Positions 2,574-61,600 of a stretch of DNA of 64,000 bases are shown here, piece by piece. The stretch comes from Labia minor. Lineage: Eukaryota; Arthropoda; Insecta; Dermaptera; Spongiphoridae. Where the stretch lies: assembly GCA_963082975.1 (NCBI GenBank), contig OY720345.1, forward strand, positions 24,994,611-25,058,610. The letters run 5' to 3'. A model generated the notes under the pieces. It ran no database searches, was not told where the DNA came from, and saw only the letters and a program-made list of their open reading frames with translations. Each line of letters begins with the position of its first letter. The first letter of the stretch is position 1. The position numbers and the translations under genes are program-made.

Positions 2574-2873
2574 TCTATCTTGCCAGAGATAGTATTACGA
2601 TCAAGATGAATTTTGATGTTTTTTTACATTTTGAAGGTCCCTGAGTCATTTTCACTAAGATTGAGAGAAATGTGTGTTTTATTTAGACAAGATTATGCAA
2701 AAACGGTTTGAGTTAGAATAGTGAAAATTGGTACAGGGACATTATTCAAAATTCGTAGTTTTCCTATCAACTTTTGAGAAATGTAGCTCATCCGGAAGAG
2801 GGTCATTAGCTACCACGTTTTCATTTTTTTTCCTCTAAAGTGACCGTAAAAATATAGATATATGTTTGATAGT
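2574..2873 (+). repeat. Repeat A copy 1, left half
   Basis: This piece starts with an inverted repeat around CTATCT..AGATAG and continues collinearly with 42705-43060 and 49417-49710 (shared text such as GGTTTGAG, GTCATTAGCTACCACG and ATATATGTTTGATAG). It stops abruptly at about 2873, where element C starts. The missing right half of the same family resumes at about 6147. No coding capacity is seen. The family is not one I recognise. Confidence 0.75.
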
Positions 2874-3338
2874 TGACCTGTGGCCATGTCCGAACCGACC
2901 GACGGTTTGAAGTAAATTAATTTCCAGCTACAGAAACAATTTCAAATAATTTAAATATATCTATTAATGCAATAAAAAACAGATATAAATATAACATAAA
3001 TATTTTTAATTTTATTTTATTTATAATATATATGTAAGACCAGGTTGTGACGTCATGAATGGTAATAAAGATGATTTTTCTCGAGGATAAAACCAATACA
3101 AAGTGCATGATTCGTGGTGATATGTAAAAAATCTCCTCATGTGAAATTTGGTGTGAAAATAACCCTTCCCTTCCTATCGTCGATCGCTAATACTACCACT
3201 TCCGGTTTCCGGATTTGCACCAAAAGTTGATCAATTCATCCCACTGATGCATTAAGTAAATATACCAAATTTCATCAAAATCCGTTTAGCCGTTCAGGCT
3301 GTACACATCTATACGGACGGACAGACAGACATCATGAT
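2874..3338 (-). mobile_element. Element C copy 1 (minus), outer left part
   Basis: Begins GTTGACCTGTGGCC and carries the subterminal motif ACCGACCGACGG. It is the reverse complement of 3450-3835 joined to 5886-6044. Its remaining ~100 bases lie at 6050-6146, so it was split by a second C copy in opposite orientation. The element is non-coding, about 0.55-0.65 kb when whole, and bears a (GTCC/GTCT)n-rich core. Its superfamily is unknown: the two ends share only a subterminal CCGACCGACG motif and are not clean terminal inverted repeats. Confidence 0.7.
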
Positions 3339-3835
3339 AAAAATACTTTTTTACCGACCGACGATAGTAAGGGAGGTATTGTTTTCACACCAAATTTCAC
3401 ATGTGGAGATTTTTACATATCTCCACGAATCATGCATTTTCTAAACAGAAAAAAGTATTTTTAGCATGATGTCTGTCCGTCCGTCTGTCCGTCTGTCCGT
3501 CCGTATAGATGTGTACAGCCTGAACGGCTCAACCGATTTTGATGAAATTTGGTATATTTACTTACTGCATCAGTGGTATGAATTGATCAACTTTTGGTGC
3601 AAATCCGGAAACCGGAAGTGGTAGTATTAGCGATCGACGATAAGAAGGGAAGGGTTATTTTCGTACCAAATTTCACATAAGGAGATTTTTTTACATATCA
3701 CCACGAATCATGTACTCTGTAATGGTTTTATCCTCGAGAAAAATCAAATTTATTAGTTTTTTCTTGATTTAAAATTATATGACGTCATCCAGCCATTCAT
3801 GACGTCACAGCCTGGTCTTGCATATATATTATAAA
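3339..3835 (+). mobile_element. Element C copy 2 (plus), first part
   Basis: Starts TACCGACCGACGATAG, matching the start of the copy at 57105 and the 39-base orphan at 38693. It runs through the GTCC/GTCT-rich tract (about 3470-3515) to 3835, where Helitron 1 interrupts it, and resumes at 5886. Together with copy 1 it makes an imperfect palindrome of several hundred bases centred near 3390 (for example 3036-3058 against 3798-3819). Confidence 0.7.
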
Positions 3836-4081
3836 CTAGCTGCTCAGAGCTCCTTCGTCGCTCTTCACATCTAGACGGGGGCTCCGCCCCCTGTACCCCC
3901 GAGTGGTACATAGTATTTGGTTGAAAGTAGTAAAAGGTTTTCATCCATTTTGTTTCAAACAATGTATAACATAAAACATTCATTTCTTATTGTGTGATTA
4001 TTTAAAATATATTTTAATTTATTTAGTAAATTAATTATATATATTATATTATTGAATATGTTATATCTATCTACTCGAAAG

Positions 4082-4860
4082 TTCTTGGCAGCTACAACCA
4101 CATTTCTCCAAGTGTCCCCGGTGACCTCATCTTTCTTTGGCCAATAAATGTTGGAAAGAATAATCTGAATCTACTCTCATCTCCCAGGATCATAGACCAT
4201 GCGTGGCTCAACGGTACTCGAAAGTTCTTGGCAGCTACAACCACATTTCTCCAAGTGTCCTTATCCTGAGCCTCTGTTCCATATCTCTCGTACGTCATTC
4301 CCTGATGTACTCATCTTTCTTTGGCCCATAAATGCTGGGGAGAATCCTATTCTCAAATACTCTGAATCCACTCTCATCTCCTAAGATCATAGACCATGTC
4401 TCACACTCATATAATACAACAGACAAAATAATTGTTTTATATATTTTAATTTTCATTCCCTTTTATAATAATTTTGATGAGATAAGCCTCTTTACTGCAT
4501 GATAACAGGCGTTTCCCGATTGCAACTTCGATTTAAATTCTTCTCAAATATTATTATCCTTCGTGATTACATTCAATTTTTCTACATATTCAAATTCTAC
4601 ATTTTGTATGTTAATACTGCTTCTGTTTGTTTCTAAATATTTCTATTTATCATTATTAATTTCAAACCTCATCTCTTTTCCTACCTCGATTAATTTTTCC
4701 TCGCTATCTGTAATTGCAATTGCCGAATCTCCTATTATATTTAAGTCGTCTGGGTCACCTAATATTTTACAATTGATTTCCGCATCTTACTCTTTCTTTA
4801 CTACCTTCAAGATAAATTTTAAGATCAAAATTTGAAAGTTTATCCGGATCTATTGAGTCA
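4082..4860 (-). pseudogene. LINE reverse-transcriptase C-terminal fragment inside Helitron 1
   Basis: Minus-strand translation gives broken stretches of a non-LTR retrotransposon RT tail: the catalytic box region near 4745 reads ..PDDLNI, followed by the family's W-S-M-x-L-G-D-E-S-R-F-R motif near 4160-4200 and again near 4330-4385. The W..GDESRFR block is present twice, about 140 bases apart, showing a local duplication. Stops and frame changes are frequent. Known LINEs carry this region after the RT fingers and palm; the endonuclease part is absent here. Confidence 0.65.
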
Positions 4861-5349
4861 TGCGTAGGTTTTACTAAAGTCTACAAATAATTAGTGAACA
4901 GAATTATTGAATTCGCGGTTTTTTTAATATCTGTCATAATGAAAATATCTTAATTAATGTTGATCGATTTGGCCTGAACCCGCAATGATATCGTCTAATA
5001 TTTCCTCCGCCTATAGTTTATAAGTATTGTATATGTTATAATAGAGTATAATATTTCTTGATCATTTCATTTCGATATTTTAATTTCATTGCTTGATTTT
5101 TATTGATTATTTTTAATTATAATAAAATTTGAGAAAATGCAAAGTTAGAGACTTGAGATAATTTATAAAAATTAACGGTATAAAAGTATTGATAAAACTA
5201 AAGATAAATTACCAATATATACATTCATTAATAGTATTAATTTAAATTAATGGATTTATTTGATTTTTTATTATTAAGTTCATTTATTTATTTTTTTAGA
5301 TCATAGTTAATTCCCTCCCTTAAAATAAAAGAAGTACCTATTCAAATAT

Positions 5350-5545
5350 GGAAAGAATAAATACAAAATAATTTAAGTTAAATATGATTTAAATATTTTA
5401 TTATATTAATTAAAATGAGAACTTTTAGAATAAATTATTTAATTGAAATGATATTTGAATATTAGAATTTAAAATAAAAAGTTAAATATTATAATAATTC
5501 TTTGATTGGGAATCCCTAGAGTTATATACATTGTGTAAAATGAGT
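5350..5545 (-). repeat. Repeat D inside Helitron 1
   Basis: Reverse complement of 42241-42400 and, less closely, 43430-43560: shared text around GATTCCCAATCAAAG, CAATTAAATAATTTATTC and TAATTTAATAAAATATTT. It is part of the body of this Helitron group and has no coding potential. Confidence 0.6.
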
Positions 5546-5885
5546 CCGCCAGTCAGTGGGCCACGCCTGGCTCTTGAATGAACAACACGGAGAACTATAT
5601 ATAAACTTTAAATCTCTCTCTGTCCCGCTCACACACACTCTCACCTCTCTCCTCATCCCCTCCACCTCTCATTTCTTAGTTATTTCAATTTCCACAAATT
5701 GTCTAATTTTTAAAATATTCACTAATTTACTTTCTATTTTTATTCTTTAATCCTTAAATAATATATTTTCTATTTTATGTTAAAATGTAAATAACTTACA
5801 TTTTAACATATTAAACTATGACAGCAAAAAAGTAAACGAATTACATACATACATACATACAAACAGTCTCCTTTATATATATAGA

Positions 5886-6049
5886 TAAAATAAAATTAAA
5901 AATGTTTATATTTATTATTTATGTATCCATATCTGTTTTTATTACATTAATAGATATATGAAAATTATTTGAAATTGTTTCTGTAGCTGGAAATTAATTT
6001 ATTTCAAACCGTCGGTCGGTTCGGACCTGGCCACAGGTCAACTTATTCT
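5886..6049 (+). mobile_element. Element C copy 2 (plus), second part
   Basis: Continuation of C copy 2 after the Helitron: it runs through GTAGCTGGAAATTAATTT and AACCGTCGGTCGGTTC to CCACAGGTCAAC. It is the mirror image of 2874-3020. The same terminal text occurs at 58010-58055 in the third C copy. Confidence 0.7.
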
Positions 6050-6146
6050 GTTAAGAAAAGGCATGATTCGTGGAGATATGTAAAAATCTCCACATGTGAA
6101 ATTTGGTGTGAAAACAATACCTCCCTTACTATCGTCGGTCGGTAAA
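6050..6146 (-). mobile_element. Element C copy 1 (minus), remaining part
   Basis: Contains, reversed, the C start segment (CTATCGTCGGTCGGTA at its end, ATTCGTGGAGATATG at its start), which is absent from the left piece of copy 1. Its presence on the far side of copy 2 shows that copy 2 jumped into copy 1. Repeat A resumes directly after it. Confidence 0.65.
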
Positions 6147-6397
6147 AATTGTTTAAAACTGCTATATATAAAATTTCAGCTTGATTGAATCGCTCATTTT
6201 AACACGTTGGCTGCCAATCACGCGCCGGCACGTGACGTGGTATCATCATCAAAGAGCCAAACACGCGCTGGTTTAATAAATATTATTTATTAATTTTAAT
6301 TTATAATTAATTAAATTTAATTTAAATATAATATATGTTTATTAATCCAATTTAAATTTGAGAGAGAGCCGAGTGGAGACACTCCAGATTTTTTTTT
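6147..6397 (+). repeat. Repeat A copy 1, right half
   Basis: Collinear with 43080-43345 and 49735-50025: AATTTCAGCTTGATTGA, CACGTGACGTGGT, CGCTGGTTTAAT and the end motif GAGTGGAGACACTCCAG. TGGAG..CTCCA can form a small terminal hairpin. Joined to 2574-2873 it makes a copy of about 550 bases. Confidence 0.75.
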
Positions 6398-9769: not shown

Positions 9770-11629
9770 ATGGATCGTTGGCTACAAACTGGTTCAACAC
9801 AGAAACGGAAAGAATCAGATGATGAGGCATCAACAGCAAACTCTACCAAGAAACGCAAAACTAGAAAATATTCGGATGATTATTTATCATTTGGATTTAC
9901 TTATATTTGCAACAATGATGTGGAAAGACCAGTCTGCGTTCTATGTCAGGAAAGTTTATCCAATGAAAGTATGAAACCTGCTAATCTCAGACGTCATTTA
10001 CAAACAAAGCACAGCGAGCATGTTAGTAAGTCTATCGAATTTTTTAAAATGAAAAAAGAAGAACTTAATTCAAGTCAGAAATTGATGGTAAAGACGGGAT
10101 CTGGTGGTATGAGTAAGAAAGCAGTAATGGCATCATATGAAGTAGCTCTACTTATTGCTAAAGCAGGAAAGCCGCATAATATAGCAGAGCAATTAATTCT
10201 TCCTGCTACAAAAGTAATTACAAATATAATGTTAGGAACTAAAGCAGCAAACGATATAAATTTGATTTCATTATCAAATGATACGGTTAAGAATAGGATT
10301 GAAGACATGTCATGTAATATAAAAGAAGAATTAATATCGAGAGTGCGCAAAAGTCACTATTACTCATTACAATTGGATGAAAGTACTGATGTCACTAATA
10401 ATGCCAATTTGTTAGCTTTCATTAGATATGAGTTTGAAAATCAAATACAAGAAGATGTATTGTTTTGTGATTCACTACCTTCACGAACGACAGCTAATGA
10501 CATATTTAACAGTTTGAATAATTTTATAACCGAAAATGAAATAGAGTGGCCAAAATGTGTTGGAATTTGCACTGATGGTGCTCGTGCAATGTCAGGTACA
10601 AGAACTGGATTGATTGCTCTTATTAAAAATGTTGCGCCTCAGGTTGTTTGGAATCATTGCTGCATTCACAGAGAATCATTAGCAGCCAAAAATATGTCAC
10701 CAGATTTGAAAAGAACATTAGACGAAGTAGTTAAAATTGTCAATTTCATTAAGGCTCGTCCACTTAATTCCAGAGTTTTTAAAATTTTGTGTGAGGAAAT
10801 GGGTAGTCAACATACACATTTATTATTACATACAGATGTACGTTGGTTGTCCCGCGGGAAAGTACTCATTCGCCTTTTTGAGCTTCGAGATGAAATACGA
10901 TTGTTTTTAATAGATGCGCATTTTGAACTGACCGAATGTTTCAATGATTTTATCTGGTTAGCTAAGGTGGCTTACTTGACTGATATTTTTACAAAATTGA
11001 ACGAACTTAATTTGAGCCTGCAAGGTACTGTTGTAAATATATTTAAAGTTGAAGATAAAATAGAAGCAATGATTAAAAAAATCGACTTGTGGTCGAAACG
11101 CATCCAGAACGGTGTATATGAGTCTTTTCCAACTCTCAATGATTTCATAGAAAGCTCCAGTGAAAAATTGCTTAATCAAACGCGTCAATTATTTGTTGAA
11201 CATTTAATTACTTTGAAAAGCAACTTCAGGAAGTATTTTTCTACTCCTGATCCTTGCAATAACTGGATCAGAGATCCATTTAATATGGAAATTACAAATG
11301 CTAAACATTTATCTGCACCTGAACAAGATATTCTCGTGGAATTATCATGTGATACAACTTATAAACTAAAATTTAACAAAACTGAATTGAGCAACTTTTG
11401 GTTACTTCTAGGGTCAGATTATCCTGCGCTTGCAAATAAAGCACTTCAACACTTGATTCCATTCTGCACAACATATTTATGCGAACAAGCTTTTTCGGTA
11501 CTATTTTATATTAAGTCTAAATATAGAAACAAATTAAATGTAGAGCCGGATCTTAGATTAAAAGTTTCCAATATTAAGCCAGATATTGAGATTCTTGTTT
11601 CAAGAAAACAACTGCATACATCTCATTAA
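9770..11629 (+). CDS. hAT transposase, Buster/ZBED5-SCAND3-like
   Basis: A 619-residue single-exon protein that would cut and paste the surrounding element in the nucleus. Residues 56-81 form a BED-like zinc finger (C56-x2-C59-x16-H76-x4-H81) for end binding. The RNase H-fold DDE candidates are D203 or D207 in LQLDESTDV, D269 in ICTDGARAM and E572 in LCEQAFS, all of which sit in motifs typical of the group. A hAT C-terminal dimerisation segment spans about 540-605. No stop or frame break occurs. The ATG at 9770 is chosen because it starts a basic leader before the finger; a CAG-less TTATTGTAG just upstream could be a splice acceptor for a leader exon. It lies centrally between intact ends, so a domesticated host gene is unlikely. 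Confidence 0.92.
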   Translation: MDRWLQTGSTQKRKESDDEASTANSTKKRKTRKYSDDYLSFGFTYICNNDVERPVCVLCQESLSNESMKPANLRRHLQTKHSEHVSKSIEFFKMKKEELNSSQKLMVKTGSGGMSKKAVMASYEVALLIAKAGKPHNIAEQLILPATKVITNIMLGTKAANDINLISLSNDTVKNRIEDMSCNIKEELISRVRKSHYYSLQLDESTDVTNNANLLAFIRYEFENQIQEDVLFCDSLPSRTTANDIFNSLNNFITENEIEWPKCVGICTDGARAMSGTRTGLIALIKNVAPQVVWNHCCIHRESLAAKNMSPDLKRTLDEVVKIVNFIKARPLNSRVFKILCEEMGSQHTHLLLHTDVRWLSRGKVLIRLFELRDEIRLFLIDAHFELTECFNDFIWLAKVAYLTDIFTKLNELNLSLQGTVVNIFKVEDKIEAMIKKIDLWSKRIQNGVYESFPTLNDFIESSSEKLLNQTRQLFVEHLITLKSNFRKYFSTPDPCNNWIRDPFNMEITNAKHLSAPEQDILVELSCDTTYKLKFNKTELSNFWLLLGSDYPALANKALQHLIPFCTTYLCEQAFSVLFYIKSKYRNKLNVEPDLRLKVSNIKPDIEILVSRKQLHTSH

Positions 11630-37828: not shown

Positions 37829-39360
37829 TTATGGTCGATCTCTTGGTGCTCGTCCAGCATTCACACCGGCCCCACCAGGTCCACCAGCGCCAGGCCCTCC
37901 TGCACTTGTAGTTCCTGCACCACCGCCTCCTGGTCCACCACCTCCCCACGATGGAGTTGTGCCTCTGCCACGAGAACCACGACCACGTCCTCGAGCAGCT
38001 TGGAAAACACAAAGTTAATAAAAATACTATATCCTTTATTAGTTTTACCGCTGCTAAATATCCTTGAATAGAACTTTATCCATTTAAAAATATTAAGTAA
38101 ACTTATTAATAAAAATAAGTTTAATAATAAATTTATTTATAGACTTATAATATGTATTTAGAAATGAAGAATTTAAAGTAAAAATAAGATTAAAATGAGT
38201 TAAGTAAAGTGTGTTAAAAATAGATAAAAAATTAAATATGAAATTATCACAATTAAAAAGAAATTTTATTTTTATATATCAAATTATTTTATTAATTTTC
38301 TTGAAATTTTTTCATTTATTTCTAAAATTATCTTATAAATTTTTTTTATATATCAAGGTAGTTGAATTGTCAAAAAATAATTTCTAATCAAATGAATAAT
38401 ATAATCCACGAATGAAGGAAACTATTAATAGTAATTTGCCAATGAAGTTATCATTTGTATAATTTGTACAATTGGTGTAGCAATTAAAAAATTATGAAAC
38501 GAGAGTGGTGCTATTTCTTTGGAGAAGATAAATAACACGATAGAAATAAAAAAATAAAGAAAAAATATATTACCTAGCAATTGTTTTTAATTATATCAGA
38601 TATTCAAATGAAAAATTCAAAAAATAAAATGAAAAGAAATGAATAATATATTTTAAATGAAGCTGTTGAGGAAAATTCAATTGTTAGGAAGAAAAAACAA
38701 TACCTCCCTTACTATCGTCGGTCGGTAAAAAGAAAATTAAGGCAAGTCATAACAAACAATACGATCACGAAATGCATTTACATTAAAAATCAAGTCCAAA
38801 AGAGTAAGAGAAAAATTTCAAAATTGAAATATTATAAATATAAATCTATGTAATTTTTTTGATAAAAGAGCAAATTATATGTTATCATCATCCTGTATTA
38901 TTATAATATTAATAATTATACAGAGTTGCCAGATATAAAGTTAACTTAATGAAATATTTCAAAGCCTATGCAATATACACAATAAATTTGAATAAAAATG
39001 ATTAATAAATAAAAGTAGAAAGATCTTATTGAAAAAATAATTACCTTGGGCTCGCAAAATTGCCGATTTCCCTCTTCCAGCACAACCAGGTCCTTTATTG
39101 CCTTGCCGTTTGAACATTGGTGCATTTTTCAACATATCTGGCAGTATAATGAATCTTACTTTACTTCCTCGAATATATACATTTTCTAATTGTGATACTT
39201 TGCCATCACGAAATGTTACTGTAACAGTAACCATTTGACAATTCATATTATCTTCTGCTTCTATTAATTTCCCGCGATAGACTTCACCGGTATTTGTTTC
39301 CAATGTGACTATATGTCCTTCGGCTTCATGTAAGACCTTAATCGGTACTCCAATAGACAT
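37829..39360 (-). CDS. SmD3: Small nuclear ribonucleoprotein Sm D3, 2 exons, 161 aa
   Basis: Core component of the heptameric Sm ring that wraps U1, U2, U4 and U5 snRNA in the spliceosome. The exons are 39045-39360 and 37829-37998; the 1.05 kb intron is GT-AG and falls between ..ILRAQ and AARGRG. The Sm1 fold has the E-x-E-D-N-M-N block at 34-40. Sm2 has [14 protein letters not shown] at 62-75, with R64-G65 the RNA-contacting pair. The C-terminal tail starts with RG repeats ([11 protein letters not shown]), the usual symmetric dimethyl-arginine and SMN-binding site, then becomes unusually Gly/Pro/Ala-rich. The tail makes the protein longer than the usual SmD3 of about 125-150 residues. The start is the standard [15 protein letters not shown]. 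Confidence 0.97.
38693..38731 (-). repeat. Orphan terminus of element C in the SmD3 intron
   Basis: 39 bases (CTCCCTTACTATCGTCGG at the core, ending TCGGTAAAAA) nearly identical to 6113-6146 and the reverse complement of 3339-3375. Nothing of the rest of element C is present on either side. Confidence 0.8.
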
Positions 39361-43345: not shown

Positions 43346-44779
43346 TTATTATGTTTAAAAGATTCTTTTTTATTATGTGATATTAATAAAAAATAACGAT
43401 ACTCTGTGTAAGTTGAATCATGTTGCACATAATTAAATAACAATTGCCAAACAAAGAATATAATATTTTTTTAAATTCTTATATTTAAATATCATTTCAA
43501 TTAAATAATTTATTCTAAAAGGTCTCATTTTAATTAATTTAATAAAATATTTAAATCACCATTCAATTTTTTATTAATAGGTTTATTTTTTTATTTTTAA
43601 TTTTTAATAAATTCTTTTTTTTTTGATATGATATTAATAAATATAAATTTAAAAATTAGAATATTTGAATTTTTTTAAATTTTAACACATGTAATCAATC
43701 ATATGCATTAAGAATGGAAAATTTTTAAAATCAACTTGCTATTAAATTCAGAAAAAAATACTGATATATAGAATATATAAACTATTCGAATATAATTTAA
43801 AACTCTTTCTCTCCTTCTATTTTAAATTAAAAAAAAAACGGAGTTTTAAGAAATTTAGATGCCTTATGCAACATGGGTGGGTAAATGAATTGGGCTGGAA
43901 GAGGAGGCAATTTATAATTTTCTTCTAATTCAGATTTAGGACAAATCGTACAACATTATATCAAATCTCGCTAAGAACATTCAATATTTTTGTACACAAA
44001 TTATTCAGAGTATTGGCTAAGCGTATCACTCACAATCAGTTTAAATTGAAATTTATATAAATTAACAAAGTGAAAATTTTTATTTGTTTAAATTTTATTA
44101 TAATGAATCAAAAAAAATTAAATATATAGATCACATGATTAAGAGAAGCAAAAAACTTGAGGGAAATAACTGTTGGACGGAGGTCGGACATGACAGAAAC
44201 TGTTAGCGAAATCTTCATATTGCGACGAATAATTTTCAAATCCCCTAGCTCCACAGAATTTAAGTTTCTTTTAAGGAAAATAACTATGATCTAAAAAAAT
44301 TAATAAATGAACTTAATAATAAAAAAAACAAATAAATCAATTAATTTAAATTAATACTATTAATGAATGTATATATTGGTAATTTATCTATAGTTTTATA
44401 CCGTTAATTTTTATAAATTGTCTCAAGTCTCTATTTTTGCATTTTCCCAAGTTTCATTATAATTAAAAATATTCAATAATAATCTAGCAATGAAAATAAA
44501 ATATCAAAATGTAATGATCAAGAAATATTATACTCTATTTCACTATTATAACATAGAAAATACTTAAGAACCATAGGCGGAGGAAATATTAGGAGATATC
44601 ATTGCGGGTTCAGGCCAAATCGACCAACATTAATTAAGATATTTTCATTATGACAGATATTAGGAACAAAACCGCGAATTCAATATTTCTGTTCACTAAT
44701 TATTTGTAGACTTTAGTAAAACATACGCATAACTCAATAGATCCGGATAAACTTTTTCAAATTTTCAATCTTCAAATTT

Positions 44780-45530
44780 CTCTTGAAGGTAGTAAAGAAA
44801 GAATAAGATGCGGAAATCAATTGTAAAATGTTAGGTTACCCAGACGACTTAAATATAATAGGAGATTAGGAAATTGCAATTGCAGATAGCGAGGAAAAAT
44901 TAATGGAGGTTTGAAATTAATAGTGATAAGAAAAAATATTTAGTAACAAAGAGGAAGAGTATTAACATACAAAATCTTAAGATACAAAATGTAGAATTTG
45001 AATATGTAGAAAAATTGAATGTAATCACGAAGGATAATAATATTTGAGAAGAATTTAATCGGGAAACGCCTGTTATCTTGCAATAAAGAGGCTTATCTCT
45101 TCAAAATTATTATCAAAGGGAATATATAAAAAAATTATTTTGCCTGTTGCATTATATGGGTGGGAGGCATGGTCTATGACCCTGGGAGATGAGAGTAGAT
45201 TCAGAGTGTTTGAGAATAGGATTCTTCCCTGCATTTATTGGCCAAAGAAAGATGAGGTCACCGGGGAATGGGGGAGACTGCATAACAAGAAATTGCATGG
45301 CCTCTCTGCATCTTCAGAAATAGTTAGGGTTATAAAAGGGAAAAAGCTGCGATAGGCAGGGCACGTGGCTAGAATGGGAGAGGAAAAAGATATTGGAAAA
45401 CGTCCGCTTGGAAAACCAATGACGCGTAGGAAGGGACGTAAGAGAGATGGGACAAGGGCTCAGGATAGGGACACTTGGAGAAATGTGGTTGTTGCGGCTA
45501 AGAACTTTCGAGTATCTTTGAGCCACATAG
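44780..45530 (+). pseudogene. LINE reverse-transcriptase C-terminal fragment inside Helitron 2
   Basis: Reads on + as a decayed non-LTR retrotransposon RT: KMLGYPDDLNIIGD near 44825-44875 (the catalytic box has P where LINEs have A), then LPVALYGWEAWSMTLGDESR near 45136-45200, WPKKDEVTGEWGRLHN, a GHVARMG motif after a stop near 45360, and RKRDGTRAQDRDTWRNVV near 45440. The order is as in LINE polyproteins; the endonuclease and most of the palm are missing. A 71-codon open stretch (45140-45355) is the longest remnant. Confidence 0.75.
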
Positions 45531-45759
45531 GTAGATAGATATAACATATACAATAATAATATATATAATTAATATAGTGATTAAATTAAAATATATTTTT
45601 TTAAATAAGAACACAAAAAGAAATGAATGTTTTATGTAATATACTGATTGAAACAAAATGGATGAAAACCTTTTACTACTTTCAACCACCAAATACTATG
45701 TACCACTCGGGGGTACAGGGGGCGGTGTGAAGAGCGCCGAAGGCGCTCTGAGCAGCTAG

Positions 45760-46621: not shown

Positions 46622-49600
46622 TTATGAGCTCATTTTTTCAATCATATCCAGAATACTTGAATATCCTCCAGACACTAATGCAAACAATGAAAAAATAATG
46701 ATGATAACATTTTTTATTAATCTCCATCGAAATCTAAAAAAAAAAATCTAAATAATACCAGGAATTTTTTTATATTTAAATTTAAACTATTAATTATATA
46801 TGAAATTTGAAAAATATAGTAGTTCAGATGAAATATCTGATTATTCAACTTACAAACTTACCATATATTATTTCCCCCTAAATCAATATTTAAATCATTA
46901 TTACAATAACCTATACTTACATTCCTAAGTTATCATCCCAACGGCAGACAGTATCTAATACAGCAGGAATCATTAATCCTAAGTTAGAAAAGCAAACAGC
47001 ACCCACTAAAGAGATAAATGGCCCTAATTTTGGTACGGCAGCAGCTACACCAACTAAACAAAGTAGAAAATAAAAATAACAACAATATTATAAACAATTT
47101 GAAATACTGATCAATAATTTAAGACCAATAATAATATCAATATTTAAATCATTATAAAAATAATAATTACCATTCAAAGAAACCATAAATATCCGGAATA
47201 TTGTTTCAGTTAGAACATGAAACTTTGAAGGTATTTTAGGTAAAAGTAGGTCCATTGATAGTTTAGATGGAACGTAAAATTGAAGACCGTAAGTACAAAA
47301 AATGGCTAAGCCAATGCATATTTGAACTATTTGTCCTGGCCTGAGGATAAAATTATTATTTGATATAAGTTCTATATAAATATATAAATATATATCTCTA
47401 TATTATGTCTTACCAATCGTCTACAGTTACATTTAATGTTATTGTAGGTTGTGTATTTGCTCCATATTTTGCATAACCAAAGAAACCAATTACTGCATAC
47501 AGTACAATAACACAGGACATTGCAATATTTAATACTCCAGGGCATCCCAAGAAATGTTGAGGAGTTTTCATTGAATTCTCCAATGGCATTACCTATAAAA
47601 GTAAAACGATTATTAATTTTTTCTATCTGTGGCTCTACGGAACAAGAAAGGTTTTGCATCAAATATCCTTTGAGTTACTCCGATCCAACACGAATTTTAT
47701 TCTCTCTTACGTCCCTTCCTACATTGTCTGTCCACTGCTTTCTTGGTCTTCCAATCATTCACTTCCCAATCGATCTCCCCACAAATATATTTTTTTGCAA
47801 GTTTATCATCTCCCATTCTTGCCCACCTCAACCTTTTTGATTTTATTAATCTAACTATGTCTGGAGATCAGAGAGGTAATGTAATTCCTCGTTATATAGT
47901 CTCCGTAATTTCACGATGAACTCATCTTTTTTTGGCCCATAATTGCTGCAAGAAATCCTATTTTCAAATACTTTAAATTTATTCTCAACTCTCAAGATCA
48001 TAGACCATGTTTCATATCTATAAAATATAACCCATAATAAGTGTTATATATATTTAAAATATATTAATTTTGATTCCCTTGGATAATAATTTTGACAAAA
48101 TAAGCCCCTTTACTACATAATAACAAGCGCTACTGGATTGCAACCTTAATTTGAATTATTCCCGAATATTGTTGTCCTTCGTGATTATAATTTCTAAATA
48201 TTTAAATTTTTCTACATTTTCAAATTTTATTATTTTTATGTTAAGTTTTTGTGTATTAGTTCTATCTATCTCTAATACTTTGTCCTTATCGATATTAATT
48301 TCAAGTCCCCACCTCTTTTCTTGTGTTTATTAATTTTTCTACTACATTTTTAAATGAATTTGTCGAATCTTTTAAAATATTTAAATCGTCTGCGTAACTT
48401 AATACCTGAATTTTTTGCCCAAATGGATTTCGTCCGATTTATCTTCAATTTTTCGAATCACGTATTCTAATGCTAAATTAAATAAAAGTGATAATATAGC
48501 GTCTCATTGTATTAAGCTGTTCCGAATTTCAAAAGTTTCTGATAATTGACTCCCGCTTATTAATTTTTTATTATATGAAAATATTTATAAAAAGATAATA
48601 TCAATAAATGTTCTGGTAAATATAGTGATGAAATATTATATAAAGCTATGATATAAAAATATTTAAATGTCACTAACATTCATTACAGATATGCATAAAT
48701 CACACAATATACTTACAACTCCAATTCCTTCCATTGCAAAAATTACTGTACTTAAAAATAAAGGAACCCCAACTACTTCAGTCGCAAAGTAATTTTTATC
48801 ATCACCAATTGAGATACCATCCTGAAACAAATTATAAAAATATTATTTTATAAAAATTTTAATATTCTTTTTATTTATTTAATTGTACGAAAGATTTGCA
48901 ACCGCAATACACATATATTCGTAACAAATTCTAGTTCTTGAGTATTTTTATTTTAATATAAATAAATAGTGTACATTATGTCACATTTTTCAATTAAATA
49001 TAATTTTACTTAATATTTTAAAGTAATTTTAAATAATTGTCTTTTAAAATATATACTTTTGTTGGTTTTTAACCCTCAAGTAAAAAATCAATTTGTCAGT
49101 CGGTGGTCATCCCCCCAGCTATCTAACTATCCAACTCTCTCAACTAATTGTCTTTTTTTTACATTTGATATGTACTCGTATATGCAATGTACACAAGTCG
49201 ATAGAATGATTCTCACAATGTTTCTTTTCTTATTTTATTATTAATATTTTACTTTCAATTTTTTTTTTTACTTTTCGTTTTTAAAACTAACAATTTACTA
49301 TTATAATGGCATGTGTTTTACTTCATTTCTAATTTCAATCCCTTCTATTTATCTTATTTTTCAAATTTATTTAGGTTCTTTTATTGTTGAAAGTTTTTAC
49401 TTTCTTTTTTCTTTTTACTATCTCGCCAGAGATGTCGATATTTTGTTGTTTTTATACGTTTTGAAGGCCCCTGAGTCATTTTCACTAAGGTTGAAAAAAA
49501 TCGTCTCTATGTGTGTGTATGTAGACAGGATTACGCAAAAACGGTTTGAGCTAGAATAATGAAATTTGGTACACGGGCATTATTCAAAATTTGTAGTTTT

Positions 49601-55600: not shown

Positions 55601-58600
55601 TATATATAAATTAATATAATAATATATTTTTGATCAAAATGTAGGCGTTAGTATTATTCGATGTTTGTTCAAAAGAAAAGGTGAATTTTGAATAATTTCG
55701 AAAAGTATTTATTTATTCATCAATATCTAGTTTGTCCCCTTCAAAATAATTCCCCTCAGATATAATGCACTTTTGCCAACACTTCTTCCAATCGTCGAAT
55801 CACTTCTGAAATGCGCTTTTCGGTATGGCTATCAACTCGTTCTTCAATTACGACTTTATCTCATCAATTGTGGCTAAACACTTTCCTTTCATTGGTCTCT
55901 TCAGTTTTAGGAATAGGAAAAAGTCGTAGGGAACCACATCTTGTGAATACGGTGGGGCATGAATACGTTGTTGTTTTTGGCCACAAAATTACGAACAAGC
56001 AATGATGTGTGATCTGGTGGATTATCGTGATGCAGAATCCATGATTTGTTTTTCCACAATTCCGATCGTTTGAGACGTATTGCTTCACGCAAACGTTGAC
56101 AAACATCCTTGTAGTATTTCTTATTAACAGTACGACCTGATGGCAAGGACTCATGATGCACCACTTCATTGTTATTGAAGAAAACAGTAAACAAAACCTC
56201 ACAGGACGTTCATCATCATCATCTTCTCGGCCTTCTGTACAACTTATAATCATTTTTTTGAGACAAAGTAGACTCGCCAAATACTACAAGATTTTTTTAA
56301 GTGCGTTGTCACACTTTATTCCATTTTTAACGCAAAATTTAATACAGATTCTTTAATCCATTTTTTTAAGTGAAAAATCGAAGAACACCCAAACACTTGA
56401 CTAACTTTTTCAGTTCTCAAAAACAAACTACTAATCCAAAATGGCTGATAAAGTCAATATATGAGAAACATATGTGTACCAACATAACCAAAAAAAATTT
56501 CGATAATTCAAAAATACCAATTTTTCAAAATTCACCTTTTCTTTTGTACAGACCTTGTATAAAATTATTGGATGCAGTTTCGGAATCTTTTTTTTTTAAT
56601 GTAATTGATGTTAATCTCTCTAATAATAATTAGATAATTTTATAAAAAACAAAAATAAAATAAAAAATAGCGATATTTAAAATATTTTGAAAGATTTCTA
56701 AATTTAAATTATGGTATAAAGCTATAAAGAATAGAAACTTACTTTAACAAATAAATATATATAATCATAAATAAATATTGAAGATTTGGATAATAATTTC
56801 AATTGAATGTTTTGTTTTCTGTATTAATTAATATAAAAATTATTTAAATATCTTATTCACACAATTAACTTATTTTCTTAATAAAAAAATTTTTATATTT
56901 CAATAATAGATCAAAGGGCTCCGATTAAAAGGCAAGTGGATTCTTAACTCTTAGTCAGATATAAAATCCATTAATAAAGAAATAATTCACTACAAAATAA
57001 ATTGAATTATGAAAATATATCCATTCTTTTCTTCATTCAATTTATATGGTACATATATCTGTTTTGCTTCTTTTTCTATAGATTTTGAATTAATTCTATT
57101 TTTTACCTATCGACGATAGGAATGGAAGGTATTCTTTTCATACCAAATTTCAAATGTGGAGATTTTTACATATCTCGACGAATCATGCATTTTGAAAAAA
57201 GTATTTTTAGCATGATGTCCGTCTTTCCGTCCGTCCGTCTTTCCGTCCGTCCGTTGTGTGCACGTATAGGTGTGTACAGCTTGAACTGCTCAACGGATTT
57301 TGATAAAATTTGGTATATTTACTTCATGCATCAGTAGCATGAATTCATCAACTTTTGTTGTATTATATATCCGGAAATTGGAAGTGGCAGTTTACAAAGT
57401 ATTAATTTTATATTCATTGTCGGGAAATACCTGAGTATTTACTTTTGGGTATAAAATCAACAATTTCTCCTATCACTTTTGGGGAAGATAATCTGGAACA
57501 GGCCAGGAAAGAAGCTTTCCAAAATTCCGGAAAAAGTTTCTATACTAATAAAGAAAGGATAGATAAAACTAGAAAAAAAAAAGAATTTAAAATAGGCGAG
57601 ATGGTATACATCGAGAATGGGAATAAAATAAACCGTAGGAAAACGGATAAAGTAAGGATGGGCCCATTCAAAATAACAAAAAGAATTTCCTCATCCATAT
57701 ACGAGGTCGACTGTGGAAAAAAAAAATTTATCAAACTGTTTCCACTTCAGTAAATTGACACCTTTTTCTTCTGAAGAAAAAGCCTAAGGGGGTAAGATGT
57801 AAAATATTTATATTTACTTCTACCTATTTATATGTGTTATGGATATCTAATTGACTCATTTATTGTTTATCTATTTGTATGTATTTTGTTTATAAACTTG
57901 TAAAATAATTTAAAAGATAATAAACTTGAAAATTAATTATTCTTCTTAGATATAATAAATTCTGTATGTTATTATTTTACATATATTTATATAATGTTAT
58001 TTAGAAATTAATTTATTTCAAATCGTCGGTCAGTTCTGTGCCTGGCCACAGCTCATATTTGATTTTATCCTAATAGTTTTAATTTTTTTTTATATGTGAT
58101 GTACACATAAATTCCAAATATTTAAATTATTATTCGCAAAAGAGTTGTGTCAACTATTCACTACAAAGATTTGTTTTTGTTATTTAACTTTTTGTAAAAA
58201 TAGATATACCTAACTAATATATAAAAATAGATTTGAACTAACCAGCATTTGAACACAATGAGTACAAACATAGCCAATGACAATTGTTCCAATCATTCCG
58301 AAAATAAGGCCTCCATTTTTAAATGCTAAGGGCATAGCCAGAATACCTGTGCCAAGGGAGCCCTTAAGTAAATGCATTAATACACCCACATCACTAAAAA
58401 CAAACGTTTACATATAATTAATGTATATTTAAATATATATTCAAAATTAATTAAATCATTCAAAATAGATTTATCTACTCACCTATTTGGCTTTTCCACA
58501 TTTCGATGTTCAAATGGATTATAAGTAGGATCAATTTCAATATCTTTTCTATCAGCTAATTTTGTTCTGCAAAAGAATTGAAATATTTATTAATTCAACT

Positions 58601-61600
58601 TATCAATTAAATTTTGGAAGTTGATTGACTAATGGGTTCTTTGAAAGTAACTTAGGGAGAAGGATTATATTTCAAATAATATATGCTTATATATCCTCCA
58701 CCTCTTTTGATCCTGAAATTTATTGAATAAAATATTTAATGTTATTTTTTGAACTCGATTTTTGACTTTCATTTATGTTTTTTAATTGTAAATGTGTTTA
58801 TGGTAAGCATTTTTTATAAATTAATTATTTAAAGAAAAATAACTCTCTTCTTAAAATAGATTTAGAATGGGGTCATTGCACAAAAAAATTTTATTTTACT
58901 ATTTAAACAACACTTCCGTAACAAATTGAGAAAAAAAAATATTTCAAAAAAATGTTAATAATTAACTGAGTTATAGTAAAACGAAAATTAAGACCGTTTG
59001 AAACGTGCTCTTTTCGCGCGCTTGCTACGTGACGTCAGAGGCTGGTACGCACGCTATATGGAACCGGCTTGTGTACACGAGGTGATATGAGTGATACATT
59101 TAATCGACCGAAAATGGAGAATATCAGTGAAAATGTTAATAATTCAAAGAAGAAAGGATCGTATAAGTGGTGCTTTGTACCAGAGTGCACTAATACAAGT
59201 ATAAAAACACCGAACAAAGTATTTTTAACAGTCCCACGTGATATTAAACGTCGAAAAATGTGGTTGAAAATGGCAAGACGTGACGATGTAGCGAATCCAC
59301 CAACAAGTTGTTTGTTTTGTTGTGAAGATCATTTCAACGTACGTATGATAAATTCATGATTTATACAGAACAATAATATATAACCAACAATAACATAACC
59401 AAAATAATATACTTATTTTCGTCTAATTTTCGTCTTGTAATTTTAAACAATATTATTAAACATATTACACTTAATTTCCTATTATGTTAAATTAAATATA
59501 AGAATTATACATTTAAATATTTACATAAATGTATTCTTATTTTATTAAATCAATAAATATATGGATAAATTTTAATAAGTATGAAAATTTTTCTATAATT
59601 GATTGCCTGGAAATAGAAATTCAAAAACCCACTAATGCAGTACATCAAGCTCTAACGTGGTCAGATTACAAAAAGTGCAATACTTTAAAATATCTGATAT
59701 CTTCGACACCAGATGGAATGATCAATTATATTTCTTGCGGTTATGGAGGAAGAACATCAGATGCGCTTATAGTGGAAAATTGTGGCTACTTAAATGAAAT
59801 ACCCCCGGGTTGTGGAATTATGGCAGATCGCGGATTTAAACATATTGAACATTTATTAATCCAAAAAAAGTGTGTATTGATTAGACCCCCCAGCGTCGCA
59901 AACTCTGCTAAACCATCAAAAGCAGAAATGATGCAAACTAAAAGGATTGCAAGTTTACGAATACATATTGAACGGGTAATAAGAAGATTGAGAGAATTTA
60001 ATTATCTTCAACCTCATTCCTGCATTCATCATGAAGCCATTAGTACAACTGATAATATTATTATCATTGCAGCAGCACTTATTAATTTACAACAACCAAT
60101 TATAAATCAGTGAGAATAAAATTAGTTTTGTAATGCAATATTCGAATTTTATTATTTTCAATTATTATATTTTCCTCTACATTTTTTACATTTTTTTTAT
60201 TTTTTTTATTTTTGTACAGATCCCAAAAGTAATGGAAATATATTTTTTTCCCAGAATTTGGATGAATTACAGATTAAATTTTTAGTATAATCTTAATCAT
60301 AATTCACCCACACGAGTTTAAATTATCAGATTGAGCCTTAACGAAGCCTGGCTGTGTCATGTTTCGCAATTACTGCGAATTTGACGGCGACTTGATGGAA
60401 AAAGATCAAAAAACTTGCACAAATACCTTTCGGTAGGTTAAACGCTCGATTGTGTACCAGCGTGGGACGTCACGAAGCGGCCGTCCAATCAGAACACGTT
60501 TAAGCCACGTGGTTAAATTCGAATTTTTTCAGCGTTTTCAATAAATTATAATTAATTGTCAAAGTATTAAATATTATTTTAAATATCATATTCGTATTTA
60601 CTATATTCAATATAGTTTAAAAAAAAATTTCAGCGAAAAAAAAAATTTTATGCAACAACCCCATTCCTACACTAAACCCATCTGATATTAGTTTTTAATG
60701 TTAAAAAATTTTACTGGAAAGAAAATTTTTTTCAAATTCGTCACTTAACATTATCTTCAAGTGGAGAATAGGTATGACATTTGAATAAAATCTATTGTAT
60801 TTTAATTAGTTATTAAATGGAAGTTAAAATGAAAGTGTGAAAAAAATAAAAATTATAAATATTATTGTTTAATTAATACATGTACAGGAAACTCTTTTGA
60901 TAATTAATTTTTAAGTATTTTTCATATTATTTTTTTCTTATTATCTCTAATCTGGTTGATATTGAATAATCTTGACTTAATTACGATATATAAAAACACT
61001 TTTTTAATCAATGAATAAAAAATTCAAGGTATTTGGACATTGTATTAAAATTTAAAAAAAATTAACATTTAACACAATTTTCTGAAAACATTTATTACAC
61101 CTTCAATAATATTTTTTTTTCTAAGATGGTTTTCGGAAAGTAATAACATTTTTTGAAAAATAAATTTCTTTATTATTTTAAAAAATATTTTCTATGCTAT
61201 TACACTTACCATAATAAGAAATGTTAATTTTGATCAATTGATTTTGGATAAAATTTTTACGCTTATTTATTGTTTATTTAATGAAATAATTATTAAAAAA
61301 AATTAATAAAAATATTTTTATTTTGTTTTCAAAATAGTACTTAATGGTACATAAATTGATTAAATTAGTTAATACACGTTTGACTTTGGTTTCAAAAAAT
61401 CTGAAGAAGACGTTTTTTGCATTTAATGATTAACATAAAAATAAATTTAATTAATTTTAGCTATCTTCTGTTCAGTTTCCGATTTAAGAATTTAAAAGTG
61501 AAATTTTTATGTAATGGAAATAAATTTTATAAATTATTTCATAATTTGGTATTTTTAAATAAGTCATTTAAAAATTTTTAATAATTATTTCAAAAATCAG

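Follow-up and report, generated by a model that had tools for sequence, protein, structure and literature searches.

Architecture of the nest

The 64,000-nt stretch of the Labia minor genome analysed here (assembly GCA_963082975.1, contig OY720345.1, positions 24,994,611 to 25,058,610 of the forward strand), hereafter called the window, carries near its beginning a nest of mobile elements in which each insertion interrupts another. Along the + strand, the layers follow one another as the left part of a repeat named A, the left part of a first copy of an element named C (C1), the left part of a second copy of C (C2), a Helitron, and then the right parts of C2, C1 and A (Table 1). This nest is very probably the product of four successive and independent insertions of rolling-circle transposons. 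The splitting of A by C1, of C1 by C2 and of C2 by the Helitron can be read directly, and the split halves and inverted repeats described in the initial annotation of this DNA are borne out by alignment to family copies. The same annotation had counted five layers; four of them are insertion layers, and the last, a putative piece of a long interspersed nuclear element (LINE), is cargo of the Helitron. The limits proposed for the Helitron (3836-5885) were exact, and those of A, C1 and C2 are shifted against the family copies. A ends at about 6387, its interruption extends from 2871/2875 to 6143/6148, and the joined C1 originally proposed (2874-3338 + 6050-6146) omits 11 nt of C1 beside a T-run.

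The comparison with family copies is based on a search of the 604-Mb genome (71 contigs). Loci designated L001 and so on are stretches fetched from this genome, 88 overall for a single focal locus, and are located on seven contigs amounting together to ~599 Mb. At least 40 copies of each element were scored, namely the best 40 of 6877 first-look candidates for A, of 2235 for the Helitron and of 1703 for C. The fetched sets comprise 27 A loci, 30 Helitron copies including the one of the window, and 30 C loci, among which are the window's own (L059), the near-duplicates L063 and L064 and the tandem L075. Within the window, the inverted arms shared by C1 and C2 measure 206, 108 and 106 nt, with 96, 95 and 97% complementarity. 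Given these lengths and identities, and the at least 40 scored copies each of A, Helitron and C, a chance origin of the arms and repeats is excluded.

Table 1. Features of the nest, with coordinates in the window
Feature	Coordinates	Strand	Pieces and basis
Repeat A, oldest layer, probable HINE/DINE-1 type	2574..6387	+	2574-2870(2874), 6144(6149)-6387; aligned with 27 genome loci and the 42.7 kb window copy
C1 (element C copy 1), probable HINE with (GTCY)n	2871..6148	-	2871-3347, 6048-6148; C family ends and alignment
AGTT (AACT on the other strand), 4-nt microhomology of C1 end and A	2871..2874		read by eye
C2 (element C copy 2), opposite orientation, in T6 run of C1	3348..6047	+	3348/3354-3835, 5886-6045/6047
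T6 run, C2/C1 boundary	3348..3353	+	T-run target typical of HINEs; T may be the host's or the element's
Non-autonomous Helitron, canonical ends	3836..5885	-	5' TC at 5885, 3' CTAG at 3836, hairpin AGAGC/GCTCT, A^T insertion
Degenerate putative LINE reverse-transcriptase tail, captured Helitron cargo	4298..4786	-	frame read; label from motifs only

Junctions between the layers

The three boundaries differ in their precision. Removal of the Helitron restores a 24-mer that is present in 27 of the 29 other C loci. At the boundary between C2 and C1, where the window has a T6 run, the uninterrupted arrangement AAAAATAC-T4..8-CTGTT is found in 23 of these 29 loci. The outermost boundary, between C1 and A, is unclean. 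The window reads GATAGTT, then C1, then AAAAATT, and A lacks at least 12 nt there (TTTCACATGATT). A stretch like TTTCACATGATT lies between GATAG and AAAAATT in all 27 fetched A loci, with base variants; a strict regular expression recovers it in 23 of them, and the remaining ones differ by base changes. C1 is itself devoid of the terminal TAT(T) at its 3' end, and the tetranucleotide AACT is common to the C1 end and to A, which would point to a microhomology-mediated loss. Each layer had been said to read through exactly once the inner one was removed. This is the case for the Helitron in C2, and for C2 in C1 within the ambiguity of the T-run, but not for C1 in A. Sequence lost or gained at the junctions, named in the initial annotation as a finding that would overturn the reading, was thus found at the outermost of them, as a loss, and the nest is not undone by it.

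Identity of the repeats A and C

On the basis of their ends, hairpins and T-run insertion sites, A and C are probably HINEs, which are non-autonomous Helentrons such as DINE-1. The A consensus, built from the other copies, starts with a 10-bp subterminal inverted repeat (subTIR), ACTATCTCGC, containing a further inverted repeat, and its partner GCGAGATAGT, the reverse complement, lies just ahead of a 3' hairpin (GAGTG-GAGA-CACTC). In the A copies whose alignment extends to ACTATC, T-runs precede this sequence. An 11-bp subTIR (ACCGACCGACG / CGTCGGTCGGT) and a (GTCY)n tract are present in the C consensus, together with a hairpin (GACCTG-GCCA-CAGGTC) that follows the 3' subTIR close to the 3' end. 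When each consensus was shuffled 1000 times, terminal matches as long as the observed subTIR were counted three times for A and once for C. The family ends of C are a T-run followed by ACCGACCGACG on one side and CAACTTAT followed by T on the other (28 of 30 loci); the latter end falls outside the fetched stretch for the window locus and was not found in L075. Two to eight T precede ACCG in all 30 C loci, which fits a T-rich insertion without target-site duplication.

The relevant portions of PMC4067079 and PMC2374699 describe HINEs and DINE-1 as having subTIRs of 11-15 bp, a 3' hairpin and insertion at T-runs, together with a GTCY microsatellite in DINE-1. A and C resemble these elements, as described there, by their subTIRs, that of A being slightly short, by a hairpin just past the 3' subTIR and by T-run sites with a variable number of T. 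C further shares the GTCY microsatellite with DINE-1, and A resembles it by a simple repeat rich in TG and by the inverted repeat located within its 5' subTIR. C was also considered as a short interspersed nuclear element (SINE) or a LINE. This was dropped: what looks like an A-tail is the T-run of the HINE 5' end read on the opposite strand, and no consistent target duplications were noticed in the C junctions that were read. Terminal inverted repeat transposons were likewise considered for A or C and dropped.

Additional arrangements of C were encountered. A third, older copy occupies positions 57100-58055 (minus strand) of the window, with matching ends ~600 nt apart and no C match between them, and another inverted pair, which has a different junction and may be an internally deleted nest, is located in L016 (162-932); L001 and L010 were left out of the comparison that gave these two cases. 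Solo fragments limited to the first 36-41 nt of C, the HINE 5' end, were observed at three unrelated places (window 38694-38731, L012 451-491 and L033 427-462) with breakpoints within 6 nt of one another, in a comparison leaving out L001, L010, L059 and L064; they are perhaps aborted rolling-circle copies. Head-to-tail copies of C are joined directly in L075 (CAACTTATTACCGACC) and are separated by ~10-12 nt in L072 and L063; either read-through of the rolling circle or repeated insertion would be expected to give such tandems. L063 and L064, ~24.5 kb apart on contig C10, agree in their match layout and element-adjacent flanks, and are probably a recent local duplication.

The Helitron and its cargo

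Direct reading of the minus strand shows that the innermost element starts with TC and ends with CTAG, preceded by the hairpin AGAGC/GCTCT. It is preceded by A in all 30 fetched copies. Its far end could be placed in 15 copies, of which 12 have T as the following base and the three others C, A and A. The canonical non-autonomous Helitron, as defined in the available part of PMC3789558, combines a 5' TC, a 3' CTRR, a hairpin, an A^T insertion site and carried sequence. The four structural features are all present in this element, which also resembles that definition by its carried sequence, and no difference in kind was seen among the features compared.

The putative LINE piece corresponds to positions 463-951 of the Helitron. 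The match is unbroken from position 1 to at least 1201, and therefore past 951, in each of the 30 fetched copies, counting that of the window, and an older relative at 44274-45270 of the window matches this region at 85%. Because the position of the piece is constant in all 30 copies and the older relative also has it, it was in place before this Helitron landed. It is captured cargo, and a fifth insertion layer is rejected on account of its presence inside the Helitron in every copy. The piece, which we take to be a LINE reverse-transcriptase tail from its motifs only, yielded no significant match in Pfam or the PDB, and similarity to reverse transcriptases was not found by this route. Older relatives of the same Helitron family occur elsewhere in the window, in pieces, at 44274-45759 (minus strand, 81-87%) and 47904-48404 (71-72%), and include the putative LINE-derived region.

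Relative ages and order of insertion

The inference of relative ages of transposable elements from who interrupts whom is established, according to the sections of PMC2517846 relevant here. In the present case, it was combined with private divergence, counted as substitutions relative to the majority sequence among the 10 nearest copies. Private substitutions amount to 38/495 (7.7%) for A, 13/569 (2.3%) for C1, 5/649 (0.8%) for C2 and 7/2049 (0.3%) for the Helitron. The steps from A to C1 (p = 4e-5) and from C1 to C2 (p = 0.03) agree with the nesting, and the order initially proposed, A, C1, C2 and then the Helitron, is upheld, with the last step given by nesting alone. Among the 27 A loci, for which 18 upstream and 26 downstream flank segments were compared, no A copy was clearly found inside C or a Helitron; the A flanks have only short AT-rich matches to these two elements, one of which (L056, 66 nt, 73%, to the Helitron) reaches the boundary of the A fragment.

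The history of the locus can be proposed as follows. A HINE of family A would have landed first, and C1, an older-looking HINE of family C, would then have entered an A/T run of A. The tip of C1, together with 12 nt or more of A, may have been lost, later or at insertion, through a small microhomology deletion (AACT/AACT). The younger-type C2 would subsequently have inserted, in opposite orientation, at the T6 run within C1, producing an interrupted palindrome. Finally, the 2.05-kb non-autonomous Helitron, with the putative LINE piece already aboard, would have landed at A^T in the AT-rich TATTATAAA^TAAAAT of C2. If the assignment of A and C to HINEs holds, all the layers are probably rolling-circle elements, since A and C fit this class.

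Several observations weigh against this scheme or narrow it. The junction of C1 and A lacks part of A, as described above, and the 10-bp subTIR of A is below the 11-15 bp given for HINEs in the same portions of PMC4067079 and PMC2374699, that of C being 11 bp. The divergence of C2 and the Helitron does not differ significantly (p = 0.17), and the copies were chosen by similarity to those of the window, which biases the consensus ages. A young C copy also lies within a Helitron copy in L079, so that the activities of the C and Helitron families overlapped in time. The order consequently holds for this locus, and less so as a time series of the families.

Comparable nests in the genome

C is inserted in C at four of the 30 C loci, the tandem loci L063, L064, L072 and L075 being excluded from this count. 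In the window, L068 and L088, the same T6 run and the same relative orientation are involved; in L070, the host of the inserted C is a degraded C copy, the site is a different and shorter T-run, and the orientation is again opposite. The outer copies of the three T6 nests are 1.8-2.3% from their neighbours and the inner ones 0-0.8%. The outer C of L068 lies in another A, by reading of the alignment, and this locus therefore constitutes a second A-C-C nest. C is also found in A in L071 and L074, by BLAST, and abuts an A end in L076 and L082. Helitrons interrupt C in four of 30 copies (window, L021, L026 and L029), and these four are no closer to one another than to other copies. A Helitron lies in A in L012, and Helitrons within or directly against other Helitron copies were observed in L012, L017 and L018. 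The following were not scored as nesting: short AT-rich matches in the flanks of Helitrons (L014, L016, L020, L028, L031, L032) and of C (L061, L082), further short matches in the flanks of L062, L063, L064, L069, L078 and L083, and, in the flanks of A, short matches to C or the Helitron.

These frequencies can be set against a background. In the flanks of the Helitron and A loci (60,070 bases), matches to A, C and the Helitron cover 3184, 3165 and 3791 bases, and of 802 runs of at least 5 T or A, 43 lie in A, 39 in C and 30 in the Helitron. In the flanks of the C loci, the corresponding figures are 34, 77 and 33 of 1007 runs. With this background somewhat inflated by flanks that include the hosts of nested cases, the C-in-C frequency (4/30) is somewhat above the sampled value (39/802), and not clearly so. 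The insertion points in C are clustered, three of the four C insertions being in the T6 run and all four Helitron insertions at positions 480-488, which fits the known T-run and AT preferences.

Alternative explanations

An assembly error across the palindrome is unlikely, judging from the assembled sequence. The inverted arms are close together, and a further inverted C pair, joined differently, occurs in L016, as an assembly or foldback artefact might produce. C1 and C2 nevertheless differ by 4.9% and by indels (37 and 10 nt), both family ends are present in C2, C1 picks up again at 6048, and L068 and L088 repeat the layout with other copies and other flanks, all of which makes such an artefact extremely improbable. 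The recurrence of this layout, with an identical T-run and relative orientation, could alternatively mean that a composite C-in-C unit transposes as a whole, the three nests being copies of one event. Indeed, C1 and the outer copy of L068 share a 10-nt deletion and the same nearest copy (L076), and both lie inside an A element. These two copies differ, however, by 3.7% and occupy different sites of A, and a 37-nt stretch absent from C1 is kept in the outer copy of L068. The inner copies are each nearest to non-nested ones (C2 to L060, 0.011; that of L068 to L079, 0.000; that of L088 to L065, 0.008), and L088 is in other sequence with one T fewer. A single composite event is accordingly very unlikely, and independent insertions are preferred.

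The manner in which C1 entered A is less settled. An imprecise insertion that deleted target DNA would yield the same final sequence as a clean insertion followed by a microhomology deletion, since both readings account for the absence of the terminal TAT(T) from C1 and of 12 nt or more from A. The other cases of C in A (L071, L074 and the outer copy of L068) look clean within T-runs, by reading, and HINEs are reported in the consulted part of PMC4067079 to insert without target-site modification, so that imprecise insertion is a possible but doubtful alternative to a later deletion. It can also be asked whether C carries a built-in landing pad, its T6 run repeatedly drawing young C copies in opposite orientation, hence the interrupted palindromes, and its AT stretch at 480-488 repeatedly catching Helitrons. 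In the same portions of PMC2517846, Alu-in-Alu insertions are said to concentrate in an internal poly-A stretch, which is comparable to the T6 run of C; that analysis used a whole-genome matrix, in contrast to the single locus and 88 fetched loci considered here. The landing pad is improbable, and was rated a little lower still on account of L070, where the insertion is at a different and shorter T-run, an argument against there being only one pad. A landing-pad cascade was also dropped as the principal driver of nesting, the C-in-C cases being not clearly above the T/A-run background. If C did carry such a pad, nesting would be partly directed by the elements themselves.

Other open frames of the window

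Two other reading frames were noted on the + strand. Positions 9770-11629 encode a 619-aa protein with a weak match to the hAT dimerisation domain (19.5 bits, below the 21.4 cut-off), and positions 59529-60113 a 194-aa piece of a DDE_Tnp_4 endonuclease (E 5.6e-39).

Significance

The nest is ordinary in kind and expected in a repeat-rich genome; its frequency looks ordinary in the sample, and the method of dating by interruption is established. The value of the locus is therefore mainly that of an annotation and of a clean worked example. The two repeats left without a name in the initial annotation, A and C, can now be named as likely HINEs, and the locus provides a locally ordered record of the activity of rolling-circle elements, in which nesting and divergence concur.

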